Positions 23,982 to 37,681 of a DNA stretch of 64,000 nucleotides are shown here, in pieces. Positions within the stretch are counted from its first letter, which is position 1. Each line of letters begins with the position of its first letter. A program made the translations under genes and the position numbers. The DNA is from Amycolatopsis sp. cg9. GTDB taxonomy: Bacteria; Actinomycetota; Actinomycetes; Mycobacteriales; Pseudonocardiaceae. A model generated the notes under the pieces. The model was not told where the DNA came from. It ran no database searches and was given only the letters and a program-made list of their open reading frames with translations. Location: the NCBI RefSeq assembly GCF_041346945.1, contig NZ_CP166850.1:7424501-7488500 (forward strand), read 5' to 3'.

Positions 23982-24559
23982 ATGAGTCCACCGGCCGGCA
24001 GCGGCAGAAGGGCCGGACCCGGGCCGCGCTGGTCGAGGCCGCGCACGCGCTGCTCGCCGACGGCGGGTCGCCGACGGTCGAAGACGCGGCCGCGGCCGCC
24101 GGGATTTCCCGCACCACCGCCTACCGCTACTTCCCCAACCAGCGCGAGCTGCTGCTGGCCGCCTACCCGGAGATCCAGGACGACGCCCGCCTGCTGCCCC
24201 CGGACGCGCCGGCCGACCCCGTCGCGCGGCTCGAGCTGGTGATGCGGGAGTTCATCGCCTTCACGCTGCGCTGGGAGCCGCAACTGCGCGCCCAGCTCCG
24301 GCTGTCGCTGGAACCCGGCGCCCCGCAGCCGGTGCTGCGTCGCGGGCGGGCGATCCGCTGGATCGAGGAGGCGCTCGCCCCGCTCGCGGACACCCACCCG
24401 CACCTGGACGTCCACGGCCTGGCCACGGCGATCCGCTCGGCGTCGGGCATCGAGTCCCTGGTGTGGCTGACCGACATCGGTGGGCTCGACCGCCCGCGGG
24501 CCGCGCAGGTGCTGGCGAGTTCGGCGCGGGCCATCCTGCGGGAGGCCCTCCTCACGTGA
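23969..24559 (+). CDS. TetR-family regulator
   Basis: A 196-residue TetR protein. The N-terminal HTH (about 13-60) includes TVEDAAAAAGISRTTAYRYF; the C-terminal ligand domain is alpha-helical. The start at 23969 gives the family's usual short lead before the HTH; it has no clear ribosome site and may be leaderless. Divergent from the cupin gene. The 3' end overlaps the convergent exported-protein gene by eight bases. Confidence 0.88.
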   Translation: MAVPYESTGRQRQKGRTRAALVEAAHALLADGGSPTVEDAAAAAGISRTTAYRYFPNQRELLLAAYPEIQDDARLLPPDAPADPVARLELVMREFIAFTLRWEPQLRAQLRLSLEPGAPQPVLRRGRAIRWIEEALAPLADTHPHLDVHGLATAIRSASGIESLVWLTDIGGLDRPRAAQVLASSARAILREALLT

Positions 24560-24962
24560 TGGACACCGTCGCCACGCACGAATCGGTGCCGTTGTCGAAC
24601 GTCGTCGACGCGTTCCCCACCGCGGTCACCGGCACGTCGAGGCCCGACGGCAGCGTCAGGCTCGTGCTCCCCGACGTCGGCACCGACCGGGTGTAGATCG
24701 TGTGCGTCGTGAAGCCGTCGCGGTAGGAGATCCGCAGGAGCAGGTTGCCCGCGTCGCCGATGTACGGGCCCGACGAAGTCGTCGCCCCGACCATGTGGTG
24801 GAAGCCGCCGGACGTCTCGTACTTGAGGGTGAACGAGCCGCCGAAGTCGCCGGAGTGGCAAACACCGGTTTTCTGGGTGAGGGTGGCCGCCTGGGCCGGG
24901 GTCGCCAGCACCGTCGCGCCGGCCACGAGTGCCGCCAGCCCGGCTCGGATCGCAGTCTTCAT
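24552..24962 (-). CDS. Small exported protein of unknown function
   Basis: A 136-residue protein with a clear signal peptide (about 1-25, ending in AQA). The mature part is beta-rich with two cysteines (VCHSGDF near 34 and SCVATVSIT at the end) that could form a disulfide. Similar small secreted proteins are widespread in actinomycetes, but I know of no function. It ends by overlapping the TetR gene and starts five bases after the stop of the universal stress gene, which is transcribed in the same direction. Confidence 0.75.
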   Translation of the reverse strand: MKTAIRAGLAALVAGATVLATPAQAATLTQKTGVCHSGDFGGSFTLKYETSGGFHHMVGATTSSGPYIGDAGNLLLRISYRDGFTTHTIYTRSVPTSGSTSLTLPSGLDVPVTAVGNASTTFDNGTDSCVATVSIT

Positions 24963-26063: not shown

Positions 26064-26843
26064 ATGGCGGTGCTGGTCGTGGCGGCCGCGGTGCTCGGGC
26101 TGCTCGTCGGGTCGTTCCTCAACGTCGTCGTCCACCGGGTGCCGCGGGGCGAGTCGGTCGTCCGCCCGGCCTCGCGCTGCCCCGGCTGCGGGCAGGAGAT
26201 CCGCGCGCGGCACAACGTCCCCGTCCTCGGCTGGCTCGTGCTCCGCGGCCGGTGCGCCGGCTGCGGCAGCCGGATCAGCGTCCGGTACCCGCTGGTCGAG
26301 CTGGGGACGGCGATCCTCTTCGTGCTCCTCGCCCTGCGGCTCGGCCCGCCGGACCTGCCCGCCTATCTCTACTTCGGCGCGATCGGCATCGCGCTCGCCC
26401 TGATCGACCTCGACTGCCGCCGGCTGCCGGACGCGATCGTGCTGCCCGCCTACCCGGTGCTCGCCGTGCTGCTCGCCGCGTCGGCCTGGTACCGCGGCGA
26501 CTGGTGGTCGCTCACCCGCGCGGGGATCGGCGGGGCCGCCCTCTTCGCCTTCTACCTGCTGCTCGCCCTCGCCCACCCCAAGGGCATGGGCTTCGGGGAC
26601 GTCAAGCTCGCCGGCCTGCTGGGCGGGATCCTCGGCTACCTCTCCTGGACGGCCTTGGTGCTCGGCGCGTTCGGCGGCTTCCTGCTCGGCGCGGTGGCCG
26701 GCGTCGTCGTGCTGGCGGCGGGCAAGGGCGATCGCAAGACGGCGCTGCCGTTCGGGCCGTTCATGATCGCCGCGGCGCTGATCGCGGTCTTCGCGGCCGG
26801 GCCGCTCGGCCAGGCCTACCGGGACCTGGTCGGCCTGGCCTGA
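26064..26843 (+). CDS. pilD: Prepilin peptidase/methyltransferase (A24)
   Basis: A 259-residue polytopic membrane enzyme. The N-terminal domain has two zinc-type CxxC pairs (RCPGCG and RCAGCG). The catalytic aspartates are in LIDLDCRRLPD and GFGDVKL (the GxGD motif). The full-length form cleaves prepilins after Gly and N-methylates the new end. AGGAG precedes the ATG. It faces the pilus operon, the two stop codons being four bases apart, and should process the pilins there. Confidence 0.93.
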   Translation: MAVLVVAAAVLGLLVGSFLNVVVHRVPRGESVVRPASRCPGCGQEIRARHNVPVLGWLVLRGRCAGCGSRISVRYPLVELGTAILFVLLALRLGPPDLPAYLYFGAIGIALALIDLDCRRLPDAIVLPAYPVLAVLLAASAWYRGDWWSLTRAGIGGAALFAFYLLLALAHPKGMGFGDVKLAGLLGGILGYLSWTALVLGAFGGFLLGAVAGVVVLAAGKGDRKTALPFGPFMIAAALIAVFAAGPLGQAYRDLVGLA

Positions 26844-26847
26844 GCGG

Positions 26848-28833
26848 TCACCGGTTCCCGGACCAGCTGAGCACCGACACCTGTCTCGCGCCGGGCACCG
26901 GGTTGGCCGGGTCGCCGTCGACGTAGGCCACCCGGGCCCGGGCCGCCGGGGTGCCGCCCGGGGCGCACGTGCCCGCCCCGGGGCAGACGTACGCCGCCAG
27001 GTAGACGCCGAAGACGAAGCCAGGGGAGTCGTCGGGAACTTCGATCACCGCGCCGGTGAACGAGACGCTGCCGGTTTCCTTCACCCACAACGACCGGGCG
27101 ATCACGCCGAAGCGGAAGATCGGTTCGATCGCGTTGTTGAGCGTGATGTCCAGGACGGCCTTCGGCGCGTACGTCGTCCCCTGCACGTAGAACCGGTTGC
27201 CGGAGTTGTTCACCGACGTCACCATCGCGCACGCCGCGCTGTTCGTGTACAGCAGCTGGGTGCACCCGTTCTGCGCGCGCAGCGCGGGCGGGGTGTAGGT
27301 GAGCTCCAGCTGGAGCGCGTCGAGCTGTTCGGTGCCCTTGTGCTTGAGCGCCGCGGTGTACCCCAGCTGCGCACCGGTGAACCCGCCGTCGTACACCTGC
27401 TGCGAGAGCGCCGCGGTGACGTCGACCAGATCGGTGTGCAGGACCTTGTCCGGGTACGACGGCACCCCGAACTTGTCCGCACCCAGCTGGACGGACAGGT
27501 TGTCCTGGCTCGACCCGTTGTCGTTGCCGTGCACCACCCGGATCTTCGCGGACTTGAGCAGGGACCCGGCCGGGATCGCGGCGGGCGGCGCGTAGCCGGT
27601 CGCCGTCACGGTCGCGCTCTGGTTGCCGTTGCCGTTGTTCGTCCACGTCGCGAAGTTGCCGTCCACAGTGGACAGGCTGCCGGCCGGGGCGCTGGTGAAG
27701 GTCCCGGCCGGCGTGCCGGACGGCGTGAGCGTCGCGGTCACCGGGGCCTCGACGCCGGACGTGAGCCCGTACAGCGCCACCGGCGGCTTCGTGCCGCTGT
27801 AGGACCCGCAGATCTCGGCCTCCGCGGCCTTGACCGCGAGCCGGCTGTCGCCGCCGAAGACGAACTGGACACCGGCCGCCTTCGCGTCTTCGATCGGGTT
27901 GTCGCACGCGCCCGGGATGGCCGAGCCGGCCGCCGACGGCGCGGCGATGATCCGGCCGGCGCGGTCCACCGGCGTGCCGGCGACCAGGCGGCCGCTGTTG
28001 ATCGTCCAGACGTCGTCGCCCGCGGGGAGGCCCGGCGGGCGGGTGACCTCGCTGTTGCGGAAGTCGAAGTAGTACGCGCCCGGCTTGAACCACCAGATGC
28101 TGTCCTTGCACGGGCTGCTGTTGGTCATCAGCGCGGACAGGCCGACCGCGTCGTCGTAGAAGCCGGGCTCGAACGTCACCACCGGGCCGGTGCAGCCGGG
28201 CACGCCCCGGTGGGCCGGCACCGACGTCAGCGCCGGGGCGTAGCCGGGATCGGCGCCCAGGCCCGACCCGGGGTAGCCGCAGTTCGCCGCCGGCGTGCTC
28301 CGGATGGTGCCCGCGCAGGCCCCGCGCGCGTACACCGCGGTGTTGGTGTCGAGTGAACCGTTGACGACGTTGATGGTCGAGTTCGAATAGACGACGCCGT
28401 GGACGCGGAACGAGGAGCCGCTCGGCTGCTGGATGTTGAGGCCGTCCTCGCCGCCGGTGCCGAGGGTGAGGATCGCGCTGCCCGGCCGGTTGCACGCGCT
28501 CAGCGACGGGCACTGGATGAGCACCTTCGCCGGGTCCGCGGTGCACGTCACCGCGGCCGACCCGCCGCTGCCGAAGCCCGGCAGCGCGAGGGTGTCGGAC
28601 CCGCCGAAGCACTGCTGCCCGGGCGCGCCGGTGAAGGTGCTGTTCCGGATGCTGTTGATCCCCGCCTGCAGCGCGCCGTCGGCCGTGTAGGCGGCCGCCG
28701 CCTGGTCGCGGAGGTTGACCGTGGCGCGGACGCTGGTGTCGGCGAAGGACAGCAGCGCGCCGAGCACCACCGCGACGACCGTGACGAGGATGAGCACCAG
28801 CGGCAGCGCGGCCCCGGTGTCGTCGCGCTTCAT
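26848..28833 (-). CDS. PilX-like large pilus-associated protein
   Basis: A 661-residue protein with a short basic start and one N-terminal membrane helix (GAALPLVLILVTVVAVVLGA), like the PilX N-terminal domain. It lacks the GF/Glu5 prepilin signature. The rest is a large extracellular beta-rich region with many cysteines (CFGGSD, CTADP, CPSLSACNRPG, CDNP), probably disulfide-bonded. It may form part of a pilus tip with the two minor prepilins directly upstream. The ATG overlaps the preceding stop. I see no known adhesin or enzyme domain. Confidence 0.72.
   Translation of the reverse strand: MKRDDTGAALPLVLILVTVVAVVLGALLSFADTSVRATVNLRDQAAAAYTADGALQAGINSIRNSTFTGAPGQQCFGGSDTLALPGFGSGGSAAVTCTADPAKVLIQCPSLSACNRPGSAILTLGTGGEDGLNIQQPSGSSFRVHGVVYSNSTINVVNGSLDTNTAVYARGACAGTIRSTPAANCGYPGSGLGADPGYAPALTSVPAHRGVPGCTGPVVTFEPGFYDDAVGLSALMTNSSPCKDSIWWFKPGAYYFDFRNSEVTRPPGLPAGDDVWTINSGRLVAGTPVDRAGRIIAAPSAAGSAIPGACDNPIEDAKAAGVQFVFGGDSRLAVKAAEAEICGSYSGTKPPVALYGLTSGVEAPVTATLTPSGTPAGTFTSAPAGSLSTVDGNFATWTNNGNGNQSATVTATGYAPPAAIPAGSLLKSAKIRVVHGNDNGSSQDNLSVQLGADKFGVPSYPDKVLHTDLVDVTAALSQQVYDGGFTGAQLGYTAALKHKGTEQLDALQLELTYTPPALRAQNGCTQLLYTNSAACAMVTSVNNSGNRFYVQGTTYAPKAVLDITLNNAIEPIFRFGVIARSLWVKETGSVSFTGAVIEVPDDSPGFVFGVYLAAYVCPGAGTCAPGGTPAARARVAYVDGDPANPVPGARQVSVLSWSGNR
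27661..27673. repeat. GTCCACWGTGGAC palindrome, copy 2
   Basis: GTCCACAGTGGAC within the PilX-like gene, read on the minus strand as Ser-Thr-Val-Asp with the rare ACT codon. Confidence 0.6.
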
Positions 28834-29456
28834 GTCTGCCTCCGTTGGCCGAACAGGGTGATGGGGTAGGGGTCGGCGCCGGCCGCGACCGCGGTGAAGG
28901 TGAACCGCACCCACTGCGGCACCGCCGCGTCCGTGCAGGTGCCGGCGCAGGTGACGGCCGGGGTGCCGGGCTGCACGTTGTGCGCGACGACCGCGTCGGA
29001 CACCGGCACCGGGGACCCGAGGCAGCGCAGGCGGTGCAGCTCGGTCCCGGACAGGTAGTAGGCGACGACGGCGGTGCGCCGGGTCGCGGCCGGCGTGCCG
29101 GTGTCCCAGTCGTCCGACAGCAGCCGCACGACCGAAACCGGGGTCGCCGCGGTGCCGCAGACCTGGCCGCCCGCGTCGTAGGCGGCGTTCAGCTGGATCG
29201 ACGGCGAGAACGGGACCTGGCCGTTGGCCACCTGCCCCGTGAAGTCGCGCAGCCCGGTCGCGGCGACGTCCTGGGCGAAGAACGCCGAGCTCTGCTGGGC
29301 GTCGTGGGAGACGGCGAGGCGGGCGGAGGTCGCGTCGGTGTTCTTGATCGCGACGACGACCGCGGTGGCGATCGGCGCGGCGACCACGCCGAGGATCACG
29401 ATGACGACGAGCAGCTCGACGAGCGTGAACCCGGCGTCGGAGCGGCGGTTCAGCAC
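28830..29456 (-). CDS. Minor prepilin, PilW/GspJ-like
   Basis: A 208-residue prepilin. The leader MLNRRSDAG is followed by FTLVELLVVIVILG: cleavage after Gly9, with the conserved Glu at +5 of the mature form. The GTG start at 29456 places this leader correctly. The C-terminal domain has paired cysteines (VCGTAA; RCLG; CAGTC). It overlaps both neighbours. Its likely role is initiating pilus assembly with the PilV-like and PilX-like proteins. Confidence 0.85.
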   Translation of the reverse strand: MLNRRSDAGFTLVELLVVIVILGVVAAPIATAVVVAIKNTDATSARLAVSHDAQQSSAFFAQDVAATGLRDFTGQVANGQVPFSPSIQLNAAYDAGGQVCGTAATPVSVVRLLSDDWDTGTPAATRRTAVVAYYLSGTELHRLRCLGSPVPVSDAVVAHNVQPGTPAVTCAGTCTDAAVPQWVRFTFTAVAAGADPYPITLFGQRRQT

Positions 29457-29890
29457 GGCGCCTCCCCGAGCCCGCAGCGCTTGCGCACCACGACTTCCAG
29501 GCGTTCGCTCGCGCGCCCGTCGCCGCTGGCGACCTGCACGGTCAGCTGCTGCAGCCCGGTGTCGGTGCCGCAGGTGGCCGACCACGCCGAGCCGGTCCAG
29601 TACTTCACCGAGGCCACCGAGCTGATGAACCCCGACGGCACCGTGAAGCCGGCCGGTGCGGCGTACTTCGCCGGCGCCGCGCACGGGAAGTACCCGCCCG
29701 CCATGACCTGGTTCTCGATCGCCTCGCCGAAGTCGCGCACGCCCGCGCCGGCGGTCGCCTGCTTGCGGTGGACGTCGGACATCAGCACGCTCACGCCGAT
29801 GCCGCCGACGATCGCGGCGACCGCGACGCCGAGCACCGCGACGGCGACCAGCAGCTCGAGGAGGCTCTCGCCCCGGTCGTCGGCGCGCAT
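29450..29890 (-). CDS. Minor prepilin, PilV/GspI-like
   Basis: A 146-residue prepilin. Leader MRADDRG, then ESLLELLVAVAVLG: cleavage after Gly7, Glu at +5, with an unusual Glu at +1 that is seen in other actinobacterial minor pilins. Cysteines near 70, 107, 139 and 146 probably pair. The start shares its last base with the pilC stop and the end overlaps the next prepilin gene by seven bases. Confidence 0.85.
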   Translation of the reverse strand: MRADDRGESLLELLVAVAVLGVAVAAIVGGIGVSVLMSDVHRKQATAGAGVRDFGEAIENQVMAGGYFPCAAPAKYAAPAGFTVPSGFISSVASVKYWTGSAWSATCGTDTGLQQLTVQVASGDGRASERLEVVVRKRCGLGEAPC

Positions 29891-31095
29891 CAGACGTGCA
29901 CCTGCGTGAAGATGCCGTACATCGCCGACACGAGCGCGACCGCGACGAACCCGACGACCAGGCCCATCACCACGATGACGGCGGGCTCGAACAGCGCGGT
30001 CAGCTTCTTCAGCCGGTAGTCCAGCTCGCCTTCGTAGTACTGGGCGGTGACCTCGAGCTGGGTGTCGAGCGTGCCGGTGTCCTCGCCGACGCGGATCATC
30101 TGCGCGGCGGTCACCGGGAACAGCCCCGAGCCGGTGAGCGGGCGGGCCAGGCCTTCGCCTTCGAGCACGGCGTGCGCGACGCGGGCGAGCGCCCGCATGA
30201 AGACGCGGTTGCGCAGGGAATCCGTCGCCACCCGCAGGGCCTCCGGCAGCGGCACCCCGGCGCTCACCATCGACGAGAGGATCCGGCAGAACCGCTCGAC
30301 GAGCGCGTGCCGCACGGTCGGGCCGATCGCGGGCACGGCCAGCAGCACCCGGTCCCGCGCGTACCGCCCGCCCGGCGTCCGCACCCCGAGCACGTACAGC
30401 GCGATCACGGCGGCGAGCCCCACCAGCAGCGCCCACCACCACTGGCCGAGGAAGTCGGTGACGGCCAGCAGCATCCGCGTCGGCAGCGGGAGCTTCGCGT
30501 TGAGGCTGGCGAAGAACACCTTGAACCGCGGCAGCACGAACGTCGCCAGCACCACGACGGTGACGACGGACATCAGCGCGATCATCGCCGGGTAGATCAG
30601 CGCGGCCTTGATCTTGCGCCGGGCTTCGAGGTCGCGTTCGAGGTAGTCGGCGAGCTGGTCGAGGACGACGTCGAGCTGCCCGGTCAGCTCCGCCGAGCGC
30701 AGGATCTCGCGGTAGAACTCGGGGAAGATCTTCGGGTGCCGGTCGACGCAGTCCGACAGCCGGTCGCCGCCGCGCAGGCCGAGCTCGACGTCCCGCAGCA
30801 TCCGGGCCACCGACGAGTTCGCGGCCTCCTCGCCGAGGATGCGCACCGCGTCGATGAGCGGCAGCCCGGCCCGGACGAACGCGCCGAGCTGGCGCGAGAG
30901 GTGCAGCACGACCTCGCGCTTGACCCGGGGTGCGGTCAGCTCCAGGCTCAGCACGCTCTTCTTCTCGGTGAGCTCGATGTCCCGCAGTTCGCGCTCGTAC
31001 AGCGCGAGCGCGGCGGCGTCGAGGTCGGCGGCCTTCTGCACCCCGCGGGTGCGCTGCCCGTCCGGGCCGGTCGCGACGTAGGCGTACCGGTTCAT
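29890..31095 (-). CDS. pilC: Type IV pilus inner-membrane platform protein
   Basis: A 401-residue GspF/PilC protein with two T2SSF domains, each followed by membrane helices. Landmarks: FVRAGLPLIDAVRILGEE in the first domain, SMVSAGVPLPEALRVATDS and VGEDTGTLDTQLEVTAQYYE in the second. It anchors the assembly ATPase PilB to the growing pilus. Start overlaps the pilB stop. Confidence 0.94.
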   Translation of the reverse strand: MNRYAYVATGPDGQRTRGVQKAADLDAAALALYERELRDIELTEKKSVLSLELTAPRVKREVVLHLSRQLGAFVRAGLPLIDAVRILGEEAANSSVARMLRDVELGLRGGDRLSDCVDRHPKIFPEFYREILRSAELTGQLDVVLDQLADYLERDLEARRKIKAALIYPAMIALMSVVTVVVLATFVLPRFKVFFASLNAKLPLPTRMLLAVTDFLGQWWWALLVGLAAVIALYVLGVRTPGGRYARDRVLLAVPAIGPTVRHALVERFCRILSSMVSAGVPLPEALRVATDSLRNRVFMRALARVAHAVLEGEGLARPLTGSGLFPVTAAQMIRVGEDTGTLDTQLEVTAQYYEGELDYRLKKLTALFEPAVIVVMGLVVGFVAVALVSAMYGIFTQVHV

Positions 31096-32621
31096 CGCGC
31101 GCCTCCGGTGAGGTAGATCGACCGCAGCACCTCGGCCGGGGTGGTGACGCCCTCGGCGATCAGCCGGAGCGCCTCGTCCTGCAGCGTCCGCATGCCTTCC
31201 TTGCGGGCCAGCTCGTGCACCTCGCGGTGCGGCGCGCTGTCCAGCACGAGCGAGCGGATCCCTTCGCTGACCGGCATCAGCTCGTAGACGCCGGTGCGGT
31301 CCAGGAACCCGGTCTGGGCGCAGAAGTTGCAGCCGGTGCCCCGGACGAACCCGCCGTCCGGGCCCGCCGCGTTCATCGAGTCCAGAAAGGACAGCTCTTC
31401 GGCGGAGGGCCGGTAGTACTCGCGGCAGCGCAGGCAGATCCGCCGGACGAGCCGCTGGGCGAGCACGGCGGTGACCGAGGACGCCACGAGGAAGTTCTCG
31501 ATGCCCATGTCGAGCAGCCGGTGCAGCGCCGACGCGGCGTCGGTGGCGTGCAGCGAGGAGAGCACGAAGTGCCCGGTGAGCGCGGACTGCACGGCGATGC
31601 GGGCGGTGTCGACGTCGCGGACCTCGCCGACGAGGATGACGTCGGGGTCCTGGCGCAGGATCGACTTCAGGCCGTCGGCGAAGGTGACGCCGGTCTGCTC
31701 GTTGATCTGGATCTGGTTGATCGAGGACATGGTGTACTCGACCGGGTCCTCGATGGTCATGATGTTGCGCTCGGCGCTGTCGAGCTCGCCCAGCGAGCCG
31801 TAGAGCGTCGTCGTCTTGCCGCTGCCGGTCGGCCCGGCGCAGATCACCATGCCGTAGGGCGACTGCAGCACCGAGCCGTAGCGCGCCGCCATCTCGGCGG
31901 GCATGCCGAGCTGCGGCAGCCGGAACAGCGGGCGGCTCTTGTCGAGCAGCCGGAGCACGACCTTCTCGCCGCCGACGACCGGCGTGGTCGCCACCCGGAT
32001 GTCCACCGGCCGGTCCTCGACGGCCATGCTGATCTGGCCGTCCTGCGGGCGGCGGCGTTCGACGATGTTCATCCCGCCGAGGATCTTGATCCGGCTGGTC
32101 ACCGCGGGGCCCATCGACCCGGGCAGGTCCAGCACGTCGTGCAGCACGCCGTCGATGCGGTAGCGGACGCGGACCCGCTCGGCCTGCGGCTCGACGTGGA
32201 TGTCGGAGGCCCGGTCGCGCAGCGCCTGCTTGATCATCAGCGCGACGACGTGCACCACCGGCGCGTCGTCGTTCGCGGTGGCCGCCGGCTCGGCGCGGGT
32301 CGCGTCGCGCCGGACGGCGTCCCGGGCTTCGAACGCCTTGACCTGCCGGTCGACGCCGGTGAGGGCGCGGTAGGTGCGTTCGACGGTGGCGAGGATGTCG
32401 GCGCGGGCGGCGACCGCGACGGTCACCGGCCGGCCGAGCGCCTCCTGCAACGCGGGTGCGGTGCCCGGGTCGGCGACCGCGACCAGCACGCTGTCTTCGC
32501 GGACGGCGAGGGGGATCGCGCAGAGCTCGCGCGCTTTCGCTTCGCCGAGCAGGTCGGCGGCCGCGCGGTCCGGGGTCACCGTGCGCAGGTCGACGGTGCG
32601 GGGCTGGGTGCGGAGTCTCAT
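31092..32621 (-). CDS. pilB: Type IV pilus assembly ATPase
   Basis: A 509-residue GspE/PilB ATPase. An N-terminal GspE N1-like domain (1-90) precedes the ATPase: Walker A GPTGSGKT (263-270), Walker B DPDVILVGEVRD, His-box SSLHATDA, and a CxxC...CxxC zinc knuckle (ICLRCREYY, GCNFCAQTGF) typical of assembly ATPases. It powers pilin polymerisation. The ATG overlaps the pilT stop by four bases. Confidence 0.94.
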   Translation of the reverse strand: MRLRTQPRTVDLRTVTPDRAAADLLGEAKARELCAIPLAVREDSVLVAVADPGTAPALQEALGRPVTVAVAARADILATVERTYRALTGVDRQVKAFEARDAVRRDATRAEPAATANDDAPVVHVVALMIKQALRDRASDIHVEPQAERVRVRYRIDGVLHDVLDLPGSMGPAVTSRIKILGGMNIVERRRPQDGQISMAVEDRPVDIRVATTPVVGGEKVVLRLLDKSRPLFRLPQLGMPAEMAARYGSVLQSPYGMVICAGPTGSGKTTTLYGSLGELDSAERNIMTIEDPVEYTMSSINQIQINEQTGVTFADGLKSILRQDPDVILVGEVRDVDTARIAVQSALTGHFVLSSLHATDAASALHRLLDMGIENFLVASSVTAVLAQRLVRRICLRCREYYRPSAEELSFLDSMNAAGPDGGFVRGTGCNFCAQTGFLDRTGVYELMPVSEGIRSLVLDSAPHREVHELARKEGMRTLQDEALRLIAEGVTTPAEVLRSIYLTGGAR

Positions 32622-33706
32622 GCCGGCACGCTCCGGGGCCGCGGGCGCGGGTCGATGTCCTGCGGGTGGAGGCTGCGGGCGGCCGCGTCGGCGGGGGAGA
32701 CCAGGCCGGCGGCGACGAGCGCGGACAGCGACTGCTCCAGCGTCACCATGCCTTCGCGGTGGCCGGTCACCAGCGCGTTGCGCAGCTGGTGCGGCTTGCC
32801 CTCCTTGATCAGGTTGCGCACGGCGGTGTTCGCGACGAGCACCTCGAACGCGGCGACCAGCCCGCCGCCGACGCGCGGCAGCAGCCGCTGGTAGACGATC
32901 CCGGTGAGCGCCGCGGCGAGCTGCACCCGCACCTGTTCCTGCTGCCCGGCCGGGAAGACGTCGATCATCCGGGCGAGGGACTGCGCGGTGTCGTTGGTGT
33001 GCAGCGTGGCGAAGACCAGGTGCCCGGTTTCGGCGATGGTGAGGGCGAAGCGGATCGACTCGAGGTCGCGCATCTCGCCCACCAGCAGGACGTCGGGGTC
33101 CTCACGCAGCGCGCTGCGCAGGGCGGCCGGGAAGGACTCGGTGTCGGTGCCGACCTCGCGCTGGTTCACCGCGGAACGGCGGTGCTCGTGGACGTACTCG
33201 ATCGGGTCCTCGACGGTGAGGATGTGGCAGGCGCGCTCGTGGTTGATCCGGTCGATGACGGCGGCGAGCGTCGTCGACTTGCCCGAGCCGGTCGGCCCGG
33301 TGACGAGCACGAGACCCTGGTGCCGGCGGGCGAAGTCGCTCAGGACCGGCGGCAGGCCGAGGTCGGCCATGGCGGGGATCCGGCGCGGGATCATCCGCAG
33401 CGCGACGACGGTGGCGCCGCGCTGGGTGAAGGCGTTGCCGCGGACGCGGGCGTGGTCGCGCCAGCTGAAGGAGAAGTCGAATTCGTGGGCGGTGCGCCAG
33501 GCGCGGGCCTGCTCGTCGGTGAGCAGCTCGCCGAGCAGGGCGTCGGTGTCCTCGCCGGAGAGGACGGGGTGCCCGGCGACCGCGGCGAGGTCGCCGTGCA
33601 CGCGCAGCTGGGGCGGCAGGCCGGCGGTGAGCAGCAGGTCGGTGCCGCGGGCTTGCCAGAGCGCTTCGAGCAGGCCGTCGGCGCGGCTGCCGGTCAGGGT
33701 GGGCAT
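32618..33706 (-). CDS. pilT: Type IV pilus retraction ATPase
   Basis: A 362-residue PilT ATPase. Walker A GPTGSGKS (137-144), Walker B DVLLVGEMRD, HTNDTAQSLARMIDVFP, and AVRNLIKEGK, which matches the PilT-specific AIRNLIRE motif required for retraction. No zinc knuckle, as expected for retraction rather than assembly ATPases. It implies a retractile pilus (twitching or DNA uptake). It starts 57 bases after the pilA stop, beyond a hairpin. Confidence 0.93.
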   Translation of the reverse strand: MPTLTGSRADGLLEALWQARGTDLLLTAGLPPQLRVHGDLAAVAGHPVLSGEDTDALLGELLTDEQARAWRTAHEFDFSFSWRDHARVRGNAFTQRGATVVALRMIPRRIPAMADLGLPPVLSDFARRHQGLVLVTGPTGSGKSTTLAAVIDRINHERACHILTVEDPIEYVHEHRRSAVNQREVGTDTESFPAALRSALREDPDVLLVGEMRDLESIRFALTIAETGHLVFATLHTNDTAQSLARMIDVFPAGQQEQVRVQLAAALTGIVYQRLLPRVGGGLVAAFEVLVANTAVRNLIKEGKPHQLRNALVTGHREGMVTLEQSLSALVAAGLVSPADAAARSLHPQDIDPRPRPRSVPA

Positions 33707-33729
33707 GGGTTCCCTCCGGGGCGAGGAGG

Positions 33730-33757
33730 CCGCGGGGCGGGTCGCCCCACCCCGCGG
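33730..33757 (-). terminator. Hairpin between pilA and pilT
   Basis: An 11-bp stem with one G-U pair when read on the minus strand (33747-33757 with 33730-33740) and a 6-base loop, starting 7 bases after the pilA stop. Probably a partial terminator or mRNA stabiliser that yields much more pilin than ATPase transcript. Confidence 0.6.
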
Positions 33758-33763
33758 CGTGGT

Positions 33764-34099
33764 TCAGTGGGTGCAGGCGCCGGTCGCCTTGACGACGCCG
33801 GCGGCGATGGTGATCGTGTAGCCGTTGGTGGTGGACGGTTCGTCCTTCAGGTAGCCGGCGGTCTTCAGCGCCGCCGGGTCCGCGGCGTAGCCGCCGGTCT
33901 TGGCGTAGAAGGCCTCGTTGGCGGTCTCGACGCTCTTCCAGTCGGCGTTGCACGCGGCGGCCTTGCCTTCGCCGTTGAACGCCTGCACGGCGAACACGAC
34001 GACGCCGGCGAGCACGCCGAGGATCACGACGACGATGAGCAGTTCGATCAGGGTGAAGCCGTCCTCGTTAGCGCGGGCGGCACGCAGTCTTTCCAGCAT
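33764..34099 (-). CDS. pilA: Major type IV prepilin
   Basis: A 111-residue prepilin. Leader MLERLRAARANEDG, then FTLIELLIVVVILGVLAG: cleavage after Gly14, mature Glu5 is Glu19. One cysteine pair (AACNAD and GACTH) likely closes the C-terminal loop. AAAGGA precedes the ATG at 34099. The small size and high-quality class III signal make it the major subunit, as does its place before the hairpin. Confidence 0.93.
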   Translation of the reverse strand: MLERLRAARANEDGFTLIELLIVVVILGVLAGVVVFAVQAFNGEGKAAACNADWKSVETANEAFYAKTGGYAADPAALKTAGYLKDEPSTTNGYTITIAAGVVKATGACTH

Positions 34100-34142
34100 G
34101 AGCTTTTCCTTTGCGTTGCAGGGGTTTCGGGGTGTTCCGGAA

Positions 34143-34541
34143 TCAGCAGGCGGCCACCTCCGGGGAACGGGCCCCCTGCCAGGTGCCGGCGACCGCGCGC
34201 ACGCTGACGTACACCTTGTTGTTGCCGGGCAGGGGGATGGTGGCCGACGTGGTCGTGGCGGTGCCCGCAACGGAAGCGGTGCCGCCCGGGGCGGTCGCGG
34301 TGAGAAGCTCGAAGCCCGGCGGCAGCGGAGCCGGGTAGTTCCAGCGCAGCGTGGCCGTGGGACTGCCGCCGCCGTTGTTGCACTTCGCCGAGTCGACGAT
34401 GGGCTTGTCCGGTGTGGACAGTCGCAGGGCGGCCGCGCCGGCGGTGCCGGAGCCGCTTTTCAGCCACGCCGCTTCGGCCTGGCCGCCGATCGCCGTGGTC
34501 GCCAGCAGCGCGGCCGCGAAGATCACCCGGGTGGTGCTCAC
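34143..34541 (-). CDS. Small exported protein 4 of the pilus operon
   Basis: A 132-residue protein with a signal peptide (about 1-24). The mature start AAWLKSGSGTAG closely resembles two other proteins of this group. The rest is one FnIII/Ig-like beta domain (TATLRWNYPAPLPPGFELL, VYVSVRAVAG) with cysteines at SAKCNN and the very C-terminus. GTG start at 34541 overlaps the previous stop. It ends 43 bases before pilA. Function unknown; probably extracellular. Confidence 0.72.
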   Translation of the reverse strand: MSTTRVIFAAALLATTAIGGQAEAAWLKSGSGTAGAAALRLSTPDKPIVDSAKCNNGGGSPTATLRWNYPAPLPPGFELLTATAPGGTASVAGTATTTSATIPLPGNNKVYVSVRAVAGTWQGARSPEVAAC

Positions 34542-35005
34542 TGGCTCACCACCGTGACGGTCACCGGGATCGTGAACACCGCGCCCTGGCAGGAGTCGTC
34601 GGCGGAGGACGCCATCGACACCGCGGTGGTCAGGGTGAGGGTCGCGGTCGCCCCGGCGGCCAGCACGGAGTTCGGCTGCTGCGCGATCCAGGTGACGGCG
34701 CTGCCCGGGCAGGAGCCGGTCGCGGTCGGTGTGCCGTTGGCGGTGACTCCGCTGACCTTCACCCCGTACGGGTTGGGGTTGGTGATCCGGATCAGGGCGG
34801 TGCCGGAGGTCCCGGGGTAGAGCAGGCCGGTGGTGAGCGCCGCGGCGTCCACCGTCCCGGTCGACGGCGCGGACGCGGTGCCCGCCTTCGCGCCGGCCGT
34901 GCCGGCGCCGGAGCTCGTCCACGCCGCGACGGCGATCCCGCCGCCCAGCGTCGCGCCGACCACCGCGGTGACCACGAGCACGCGGCGCAGGGTCGGGTTG
35001 TTCAT
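34538..35005 (-). CDS. Small exported protein 3 of the pilus operon
   Basis: A 155-residue protein with an N-terminal membrane/signal segment and mature start AAWTSSGAGTAG. The core shares LYPG, ITNPNPYGV, a LAAGATATLTLT strand, and C-terminal ADDSCQGAVFTIPV with protein 1, so the two are paralogues. The motif after the signal recalls TasA/camelysin-type exported proteins (resemblance only). Start overlaps the stop of protein 2. Confidence 0.72.
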   Translation of the reverse strand: MNNPTLRRVLVVTAVVGATLGGGIAVAAWTSSGAGTAGAKAGTASAPSTGTVDAAALTTGLLYPGTSGTALIRITNPNPYGVKVSGVTANGTPTATGSCPGSAVTWIAQQPNSVLAAGATATLTLTTAVSMASSADDSCQGAVFTIPVTVTVVSQ

Positions 35006-35439
35006 GGCTTGACCGCCGTTCCTGTGTACGTCAGGGGAAAGGTGAGGGCGCGGCACGCGTCGGGCGTGCCGGGGAGCATGTGCGTGGTGAGCGCGACGTC
35101 GGCGGTGCCTTTGCCGGGCACCGTGACGGGCGCGGCGAGCGCGTCCACCCGCACCGACGAAGCCGGGCAGGCCGCGACCGTCCGGCCCCGGTCGTCGACG
35201 GGCTTGCCGACCGCTGCCGACACCGTCTCGACCCGGATGGGGAAGTTTTCGGCGTTGCCGAGCCGGATCCACCGCGTCCCGGTCGCCCCGGGGAAGAGTG
35301 CGGTGGCCCGGCCCGGCACGTCGCCGATGGCGAACTGTTTGATGCCGTTGCCGTTCGCGGTGTTCGCCACGGGCGTCGGGGCGAGCGCGAACCACCCGAG
35401 CAGGACGGCCGCGAGCGCGCCGATCCGCCGCCTGGACAT
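35002..35439 (-). CDS. Small exported protein 2 of the pilus operon
   Basis: A 145-residue protein with a signal segment (about 1-25). It lacks the AAWTS start but keeps the rest of the pattern: ALFPGATGTRWIRLGNAENFPIRV, one central CPASS cysteine, and PDACRALTFPLTY near the end. It is therefore a divergent member of the same beta-sandwich family. It lies eight bases from protein 1 and overlaps protein 3. Confidence 0.7.
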   Translation of the reverse strand: MSRRRIGALAAVLLGWFALAPTPVANTANGNGIKQFAIGDVPGRATALFPGATGTRWIRLGNAENFPIRVETVSAAVGKPVDDRGRTVAACPASSVRVDALAAPVTVPGKGTADVALTTHMLPGTPDACRALTFPLTYTGTAVKP

Positions 35440-35447
35440 CGTTCGGA

Positions 35448-35894
35448 TCAGGCGTTGGAGGACAGCGTGGCGGTGAGCGGCAGCGTGAACGTCTGGCTCT
35501 TGCAGGCGTCGGTGGCGTTGCCGTTCATGGTCGCGGTGAGGGTGTAGGTGCCTTCGCCGTGCGCCAGGATGGTGCCCGCCAGGTCCCCGGGGACGCTCGT
35601 CACGGTTCCGGCGGCGCAGCCGTTGACCGCGTTCGAAGAGCCGTTGCTGATGCTGTTCACCACGACCGGGTAGTCGTTGGGGTTGGAGATCTTCACCGTG
35701 AAGGTGGTCGAGCCGCCGGGGTAGAGCGCGCTGCCCGAGTTGCCGGGCGTGATCACCGAGGCGACATCGGTCTTCGAGGTGACCGTGCCGGTGCCGGCGC
35801 CGGTGCTCGTCCAGGCCGCGTAGGCGACACCGGCGACGACGACCGCTCCGGCAGCGCCGAGGACGATGGCGGACCGCTTGCTGATCTTGCGCAT
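35448..35894 (-). CDS. Small exported protein 1, first gene of the pilus operon
   Basis: A 148-residue protein. N-terminal signal (about 1-26), mature start AAWTSTGAGTGTV, then LYPGGSTTFTVKISNPNDYPV, a cysteine at GCAAG, and TDACKSQTFTLPLTATL at the end. Paralogue of protein 3. GGAGAG precedes the ATG at 35894, and a 458-base gap upstream should hold the operon promoter. Likely a cell-surface or matrix protein made together with the pilus (inference). Confidence 0.73.
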   Translation of the reverse strand: MRKISKRSAIVLGAAGAVVVAGVAYAAWTSTGAGTGTVTSKTDVASVITPGNSGSALYPGGSTTFTVKISNPNDYPVVVNSISNGSSNAVNGCAAGTVTSVPGDLAGTILAHGEGTYTLTATMNGNATDACKSQTFTLPLTATLSSNA

Positions 35895-36352
35895 GGGTTC
35901 TCTCCAGGAATTCGCTGTGTCGGGGAGGCCCGGGTGGACCGTCACGAAGAGTGTGCGAATCCGGGTGTGCCCAGCACCTCAGGCGACCGGCCCGACTGCG
36001 AAGGACAGAGGTCCCTTGCGCCGTTCGGCCCAGCGTGTTACGCGCGCGGGATCGAGCCGCCGCGACCGTGTTTCACCGCGGAAGAGTTCCGTTGCGGGAC
36101 CGTGACCTGGGGTGATGCGCACCCGTTCGGCCGAATGGCGGCGGCCGGTGCGGAGGCTTCGCGGCGGGCTCTCCGAAGGCCGCCGGCGGGGTCCGGAGTG
36201 CCGTCCCCGGGCCCTGCGCGGTGATGACTTTCGGTAACAATTCTCCGCGTGCTGAAACGCACCCGCCGAAGACCCTCCGGGCGGCCCTTGACGCGCCTCC
36301 CGGCGTCCCCCGATCATTCCCGTCGCTCACCCCCGGGAGAACGAGGTACCCC
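35895..36352. other. Divergent intergenic region between pilus operon and EEP enzyme gene
   Basis: These 458 bases separate two divergent genes and should hold both promoters. I found no clear sigma-70-type -35/-10 pair. The only dyad noted is GGACAGAGGTCC near 36003-36014. The frames here are random GC-rich sequence. Confidence 0.5.
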
Positions 36353-37681
36353 GTGAAGAACCGCCTCGCCGTCGTGGTCCTCGTGTGTGCGGCCGCCGTG
36401 CTGGTCCCGGCCGCCGCGCACGCCGATCCCATCGACGGCGGCACCTTCTCCGTGCTGAGCTACAACGTCGCCGGGCTGCCCGAAGGCATTTCGAGCGCAC
36501 CGACCCCCCGCGAGCCCGCCACGACGGCGATCGGGCAGCGGCTGGGCCCGTACGACGTGGTGCACGTGGAGGAGGACTTCAACTACCACGCCACGCTCTA
36601 CGCGGCCGACCACCACCCGTACCGCACCCCGACGAGCGGCGGCGCGGGGATCGGCAGCGGCCTGAACACGCTGTCCTCGCTGCCCTACGACACCGGCGAC
36701 TTCGAGCGCGTGCGCTGGAACTCGTGCCAGTTCGACTCGGGCGACTGCCTCACCCCCAAGGGGTTCACCTTCATGCGGCTGAGGCTCGCCGAAGGCGTGT
36801 ACGTCGACACCTACAACGTGCACACCAACGCGGGCACGAACGACGGCGACCAGGCGTCGCGCGCGTCGAACCTGGCGCAGCTGACGGCGTTCATCCGCAC
36901 CCGCTCGGCGGGCAACGCGGTGCTCGTCCTGGGCGACACGAACACGCGCTACACCCGCGCGGCGGACACGATCGCCGCGTTCGCCGCGGACAACGGCCTC
37001 ACCGACGCGTGGGTGAAGCTCGTCCGCGGCGGGACCGCGCCCGCGCCGGGCAGTCCCGCGCTGGTGTGCGACCCGCAGCACGTCACCGACGACTGCGAAG
37101 TCGTCGACAAGGTCCTCTACCGCGGCAGCCCGCTCGTGTCCCTCGGCGCGACGGCGTACCACAACGAGCACGCGGGGTTCCTCGACGACGCGGGCCGGAT
37201 GCTGTCCGACCACGACCCGGTCAGTGTCCGCTTCGACTGGACGCGCAACCCGGAACTGCGCCTGTCCGACCAGTTCGGCGGCCCGCACGGCGACTACTTC
37301 ACCGACGTCGCCGCCCTCCCGCCGGGCGCCCGCGTCCGGACGCTGTCGCTGCGCGCCGGCTCGCGGGTGGACCAGCTCGGGGTGACGCTCGAGAACGGCA
37401 CGGTGCTGACCCACGGCGGTGCCGGCGGGACGGCGGCCGCGCTCACCCTCGGCGCCGGCGAGTACGTCACGGAAGCGACGGTGTGCCAGGGCAGCTACCA
37501 GGGGCGGACGCGGATCTTCTCGGCGGCGTTCACGACCAGCACCGGCCGCACCCTCGCGGGCGGCTCGGTGACGCCGGACTGCGTGACGCGCACGACACCG
37601 GCGGGCTGGCAGCTCGCCGGCTTCCACGGCCGCGCCGGCGGCGAGGTCGACAAGGTCGGGTTCGCCTACACCCGGCGCTGA
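36353..37681 (+). CDS. Secreted EEP-family phosphodiesterase with jacalin-like domain
   Basis: A 442-residue protein. Signal peptide (about 1-24), endonuclease/exonuclease/phosphatase fold (about 30-300) with SYNVAGLP, EEDFNYH, YNVHTNAG, VLGDTNTRY and the catalytic SDHDPV motif, then a jacalin-like lectin domain (about 305-442: FGGPHGDYFTD, VDQLGVTL, HGGAGG). The sphingomyelinase/phospholipase branch of the superfamily fits best, with the lectin part targeting glycans. The GTG at 36353 follows GAGAACGAGG; a longer frame from 36221 adds residues before the signal peptide and was rejected. The substrate is unproven. Confidence 0.83.
   Translation: MKNRLAVVVLVCAAAVLVPAAAHADPIDGGTFSVLSYNVAGLPEGISSAPTPREPATTAIGQRLGPYDVVHVEEDFNYHATLYAADHHPYRTPTSGGAGIGSGLNTLSSLPYDTGDFERVRWNSCQFDSGDCLTPKGFTFMRLRLAEGVYVDTYNVHTNAGTNDGDQASRASNLAQLTAFIRTRSAGNAVLVLGDTNTRYTRAADTIAAFAADNGLTDAWVKLVRGGTAPAPGSPALVCDPQHVTDDCEVVDKVLYRGSPLVSLGATAYHNEHAGFLDDAGRMLSDHDPVSVRFDWTRNPELRLSDQFGGPHGDYFTDVAALPPGARVRTLSLRAGSRVDQLGVTLENGTVLTHGGAGGTAAALTLGAGEYVTEATVCQGSYQGRTRIFSAAFTTSTGRTLAGGSVTPDCVTRTTPAGWQLAGFHGRAGGEVDKVGFAYTRR

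Follow-up and report, generated by a model that had tools for sequence, protein, structure and literature searches.

The closest described systems are the TasA-TapA fibre of Bacillus subtilis (tapA-sipW-tasA), the archaeal threads of Sulfolobus (Saci_0406), the chaperone-usher pili of the PapD/Caf1 class and the type IV pili of monoderm bacteria. According to the passages of the TasA literature that we drew on, TasA and TapA carry as donor strand an N-terminal segment that is conserved although it has no structure in the monomer, and that occurs on two different folds (PMC9674648). The corresponding passages on the archaeal threads place the donor strand on one fold (PMC9715654), and a CapP-TasA-CalY system is reported in Bacillus cereus (PMC13082335). 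These passages describe no donor-strand fibre in Gram-positive soil actinobacteria. We have analysed 64,000 nucleotides of the genome of Amycolatopsis sp. cg9 (contig NZ_CP166850.1, positions 7,424,501 to 7,488,500; hereafter, the window), in which four genes for small exported proteins, g1 to g4, head a type IV pilus operon on the minus strand. The analysis showed that this exported cassette is separable from the pilus and not a fixed part of it. We put at roughly 0.4 the probability that g1 to g4 are the Amycolatopsis copy of a stand-alone exported cassette forming a donor-strand surface fibre, in which the types represented by g1 and g3 (S1 and S3) would build the shaft, that of g2 (S2) the base and that of g4 (F) the end.

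The cassette resembles TasA-TapA in combining small secreted beta-sandwich subunits with a partner of a different domain that has a similar N-terminal segment, and in the aromatic residue at mature position 2 (passages of PMC9674648 and PMC10151520). It differs in having three S paralogues, including a tail-less S2, and in that F is a fibronectin type III (FnIII) protein. The window cassette also has no further gene, the signal-peptidase query having been LepB only, with no SipW profile run. With the archaeal threads it shares a signal peptidase I cleavage followed immediately by a conserved segment, which serves there as donor strand, and a putative cap protein in the neighbourhood (passages of PMC9715654). 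Those threads belong to another domain of life and have one shaft subunit instead of S1 and S3.

An exported cassette separable from the type IV pilus

The eleven minus-strand open reading frames described in the original prediction (35894-26848) are all present, with neighbours overlapping or at most 57 nt apart (8, -4, -4, 43 and 57 nt between the first six genes, g1 to pilT). The exported beta-sandwich proteins g1-g2-g3-g4 are followed by pilA-pilT-pilB-pilC, two minor prepilins and a PilX-like protein; Pfam matches bear out the identity of pilA, pilT, pilB, pilC and minor prepilin 2, with minor prepilin 1 just under the cut-off. The products of g1 (S1; 35448..35894, 148 aa) and g3 (S3; 34538..35005, 155 aa) consist of a signal peptide, a mature tail (AWTSTGAGTG and AWTSSGAGTA, respectively) and an immunoglobulin (Ig)-like domain, and that of g2 (S2; 35002..35439, 145 aa) of an N-terminal hydrophobic segment and an Ig-like domain, without the AW tail. 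The fourth gene, g4 (F; 34143..34541, 132 aa, GTG start), encodes a signal peptide, a mature AWLKSGSGTA tail and one complete FnIII domain. The 458-nt gap upstream of g1 (35895..36352), beyond which a divergent gene starts at 36353, is the probable site of the operon promoter.

Membership of the same operon, with g4 43 nt ahead of pilA, speaks for the idea raised in the original prediction that these proteins serve the type IV pilus as accessory subunits, such as a sheath, base or tip. So does their distribution within the genus: among 80 Amycolatopsis genomes (own included), S genes were found in 20 (E 1e-5) and pilT in 11 (E 1e-40), and in 11/11 of the pilT-bearing genomes S genes lie directly upstream of the pilus. 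In all 11 loci the stop of the g4-like gene is 33-94 nt from pilA (the F gene of locus L129 was missed by the g4 query and found via its start motif). The cassette is probably co-transcribed with the pilus operon in this one clade. However, PilT of the 11 genomes is 93-100% identical to that of the window, so that the linkage probably reflects one event. Moreover, three more genomes of the genus (G022, G032 and G317) have the full cassette without pilT. In G032 and G317 the S-S-S-F order is present, and pil genes were not found in the stretch examined. In G022 (L123) a single deletion extends from inside pilA to inside pilX, with the four cassette genes open and the peptidase left; hence, the cassette can outlive the pilus. 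The deletion in G305 (L142) is a different and larger one, from inside g2 into pilX, and g1 was not found there. Both deletions end inside pilX, one sparing the cassette and the other removing most of it.

Beyond the genus, one scan of 84,980 species genomes with the S3-type C-terminal pattern yielded 62 loci, that is, loci with an S3-like gene, of which L031-L034 (G285, G320, G294 and G032, respectively) overlap the genus set. The stored flanks of three of the 62, all Amycolatopsis, contained pilB, pilT and pilC, which were not found in those of the other 59 (full 10-kb flanks being available for 44 of the 62). These loci have one to three S genes, after which there is usually an FnIII protein that starts in a similar way. 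F was downstream of S in 56 of 63 sources (the 62 loci and the window), and the same order was seen in 12/13 loci of a phylum-wide sample, in which S was present in 14 of 396 genomes, own included. No neighbour beyond S and F is constant, the largest other cluster (dehydrogenase type) being found in 11/63 sources. The cassette is widespread but sparse, with S1-S2-S3-F spread over Actinomycetota and one metagenome-assembled genome labelled Dormibacterota. A further S copy follows F in eight loci from Actinoplanes and related genera (L076, L077, L079, L083, L084, L086, L091 and L092), five of which share the same two further downstream genes (clusters x4 and x5).

The pilus was likewise found without the cassette. 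PilT matches were obtained in 103/394 genomes by a class search and in 57/249 by an order search, and from these non-Amycolatopsis matches we have compared the surroundings of 52 (the 20 best class matches, 20 picked lower in the list and the 12 best order matches). An S gene was found in none of these 52 regions (0/40 class, 0/12 order); many are more distant pilus types with 45-55% PilT identity, several are cut by contig ends, several contain only pilT, and a single contig of G500 accounts for three. The seven nearest PilT proteins are 73-76% identical to that of the window, and five of their regions are complete operons in the pilA-T-B-C-minor-minor-PilX order (L212-L215 and L218), the other two being cut by contig ends. 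One of the nearest regions belongs to G244, a genome of the same family that has its S gene on a different contig (L224). At the genome level, S and pilT co-occurred in the order above expectation (both 16, S only 16, pilT only 41, neither 176; p 4e-4, uncorrected for kinship), a point in favour of accessory pilus subunits; by coordinates they were side by side only in the own genome of this sample, contig-end links being possible in fragmented assemblies.

As for the proteins themselves, type IV pili of monoderm bacteria correspond to what lies directly downstream of the cassette (pilA, T, B and C, minor prepilins and PilD), whereas g1 to g4 gave no match to a class III prepilin leader (N_methyl/GFxxxE) at E up to 1. 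Together with the pilus operons of up to 76% PilT identity without adjoining S genes, the 59 loci without pilB, pilT or pilC and the cassette retained in G022, this makes accessory pilus subunits an unlikely explanation. The proposal of a pilus-specific four-gene block, to be looked for beside pilus genes in relatives, was contradicted by the very outcome that the original prediction had named against itself, the finding of the cassette away from pilus genes. The cassette seems to have become linked to the pilus only in one Amycolatopsis group. That one clade has a pilus next to a cassette that is otherwise independent of it is a warning against inferring pilus function from operon membership.

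Folds and start segments of the cassette proteins

When g1 was searched against its own genome, g3 (E 1.9e-14) and g2 (E 9.4e-7) were far ahead of the next place (0.027), so that their similarity reflects homology and not chance. Thus, the three Ig-like proteins g1 (S1), g2 (S2) and g3 (S3) are paralogues of one another, which gives a basis to the likeness noticed earlier among them. The single-chain model of the S domain has six strands and is of moderate confidence. The g4 protein differs from them in fold, its single complete domain having the seven strands of FnIII. The earlier view of beta-sandwich proteins heading the operon was supported as to export, folds and operon link, and refined as to g4. 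None of the 36 S proteins tested, nor the short F proteins tested, had a Pfam or NCBIfam match above cut-off. Rough gene calls put the length of F proteins at about 125 to 1,100 aa; Big or related repeats were present in two of the four long F proteins scanned. The named matches of g4 were all from Amycolatopsis, as were most of the best ones of g3.

In a tree built from 146 S domains, with two proteins represented twice, S2 forms a clade with 30 leaves (28 distinct; support 0.82), and there are two S1 groups, one of 18 leaves (S1a, support 0.997), in which g1 of the window falls, and one of 14 (0.90). All leaves that fall into neither an S1 nor the S2 clade were labelled S3, a label that takes in some genes that are S1-like by position. 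Eight S2-type proteins, whose N-termini were inspected by eye, were added to the tree by hand and stand outside the 22 S2 sequences counted below. Matches of fewer than 85 model positions were dropped ahead of the type counts, and the 32 S1 include the F gene of L037.

The common mature start predicted for three of the four proteins is present in g1 (AAWTSTGAGT), g3 (AAWTSSGAGT) and g4 (AAWLKSGSGT). More generally, A-[WYF]..GxG directly after the signal peptide is common to S1, S3 and F and nearly always missing from S2. The strict pattern was found in 30/32 S1, 67/84 S3 and 2/22 S2 sequences, both S2 matches lying within the hydrophobic segment or at its end, and a rougher scan for the start segment gave 29/32, 70/84 and 6/22, respectively. 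The segment is about as conserved as the domain (mean majority frequency of 0.69 vs. 0.62), with positions A41 and A44 nearly invariant and conservation extending well beyond the cleavage site, and it is predicted to be disordered (low pLDDT in single-chain models). Starts of this type were also present in 26 other open reading frames of the 62 loci, sorted by eye into 18 F genes, one apparent further S1 and seven others. Inspection by eye further indicated that S2 N-termini often look uncleaved, that the S2 of L034 (Amycolatopsis xylanica, a species with the cassette only) has a lipobox-like LTAAC and that some S2 proteins have apparent Ig repeats ahead of the S domain; of two such proteins scanned, neither had a Pfam match above cut-off.

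A candidate donor-strand fibre

Since the start segment is conserved, occurs on two folds and is predicted to lack structure in the monomer, we read it as the putative donor beta-strand of S1, S3 and F. After export, the tail of one subunit would complete the Ig-like sandwich of the next. With both tail and acceptor, S1 and S3 would form the shaft. The acceptor without a tail, S2, would be the membrane-proximal base, a role suggested by its often uncleaved-looking, apparently membrane-inserted N-terminus and by the single lipobox-like sequence. F, with a tail and an FnIII domain that is already complete, would only donate and would cap the distal end, with further Ig-type repeats in some species. 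Where cassette and pilus operon are linked, in the one Amycolatopsis clade, both filaments may appear together. A matrix fibre, one of the options offered in the original prediction, fits best.

More tentatively, the four parts may constitute an undescribed actinobacterial surface-fibre system in which S1 and S3 give and accept, S2 only accepts and F only gives. Such a kit could be linked to an unrelated surface machine, for instance a type IV pilus, and might assemble without dedicated machinery, as no other gene is constantly beside the cassette in the loci compared. Among the papers listed by searches of the open literature, which mostly excludes subscription papers, there was none on this cassette and, in agreement with the original prediction, no described pilus system with one like it. 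If the fibre reading is true, these sparse and widely spread actinobacterial genes would represent an extracellular fibre system of Gram-positive soil bacteria that is amenable to testing, and the pattern of tails, missing tails and complete domains would predict directly which subunit binds which.

A start common to two folds could equally be a sorting signal. The proteins would then be secreted, wall-associated and non-polymerising, forming a coat or an adhesin complex, and AW..GxG would direct them to a common peptidase or wall site, as a signal for processing or sorting. The signal peptides do look like ordinary type I, and in L054 (Pseudonocardia endophytica) a gene for a LepB-type signal peptidase, a possible dedicated peptidase, is located between the S1 and S3 genes (L054 8591-10417). 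With that LepB as query, however, LepB-like genes were found in 1/62 S loci, and the conservation past the cleavage site, with the nearly invariant A41 and A44, also speaks against this reading. In addition, S2 has the domain without the start, which fits an acceptor-only logic better than common sorting. We regard wall-associated proteins of this kind as possible, if doubtful.

The fibre reading also has to be set against the possibility that the S proteins do belong to the TasA/camelysin family, as diverged but true members. When profiles of the full-length S proteins and of nine actinobacterial PF12389-type proteins were compared, Prob reached 91.8 over 151 columns, a value to which the signal peptide contributed, and by eye the two groups have the same skeleton (an aromatic after the cleavage site, a PG turn and a late QG). 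The mature regions alone gave Prob 1.4, with a score of 18.1 over 38 columns only, vs. at most 15.1 in 60 column shuffles, a result that does not demonstrate homology of the mature region. PF12389 was not hit by any of the 36 aligned S proteins at E 0.1, nor, up to E 1, by any of g1 to g4. Membership of this family is therefore unsupported by sequence, and we hold it to be quite unlikely. The own genome does encode a camelysin-like protein far from the cassette (L191, G000:C1:4851951-4852202; PF12389 at 24.7 bits vs. a cut-off of 22.5).

The downstream pilus and the surroundings of the locus

The remaining genes of the operon, all on the minus strand, are those for the pilA-like major prepilin (33764..34099; PF07963, TIGR02532), the retraction ATPase pilT (32618..33706; PF00437), the extension ATPase pilB (31092..32621; PF00437, PF05157), the platform protein pilC (29890..31095; PF00482), minor prepilin 1 (29450..29890; PF07963 at 20.6 bits, just below the 21.2 cut-off), minor prepilin 2 (28830..29456; PF07963, GTG start) and the large PilX-like protein (26848..28833, 661 aa). 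The Pfam matches were to T2SSE for both pilT and pilB, which were told apart by length and the MshEN domain of the latter, to T2SSF for pilC and to N_methyl for the prepilins. The PilX-like protein had no Pfam match at E 0.01, and its position is kept in the pilus loci of the genus. Convergent to the operon, on the plus strand, lies the gene for the prepilin peptidase PilD (26064..26843; PF06750 and PF01478, Peptidase_A24).

PilB, PilT, PilC, a type IV pilin and PilD, as expected of a type IVa pilus, are all present. A search of the whole genome at E 0.01 gave no match to PilM (PF11104, PilM_2) or PilN (PF05137); PilO was not searched. PilM, PilN and PilO have been described as specific to type IVa pili, and those actinobacterial pili that had been studied at the time as type IVc (PMC6916266). 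By these matches the downstream pilus is unusual, an exceptionally small, PilT-bearing set for a monoderm, with PilT, PilB, PilC, PilD and pilins. The same pil gene order is found in other actinobacteria (L143, L212-L215 and L218; PilM and PilN were not searched there).

No Rfam match was obtained in the window at gathering scores. The divergent neighbour of the cassette (36353-37681, plus strand) encodes an enzyme of the endonuclease/exonuclease/phosphatase type with a fused jacalin-like lectin domain; among 20 genus stretches compared, a copy was present only in L133 and L134. At the pilus end of the locus, a minus-strand gene (24552-24962) encodes a small exported-looking protein of 136 aa without a Pfam match, and it is found there in 10 of the 11 pilus stretches, including the window, and in both deletion strains.

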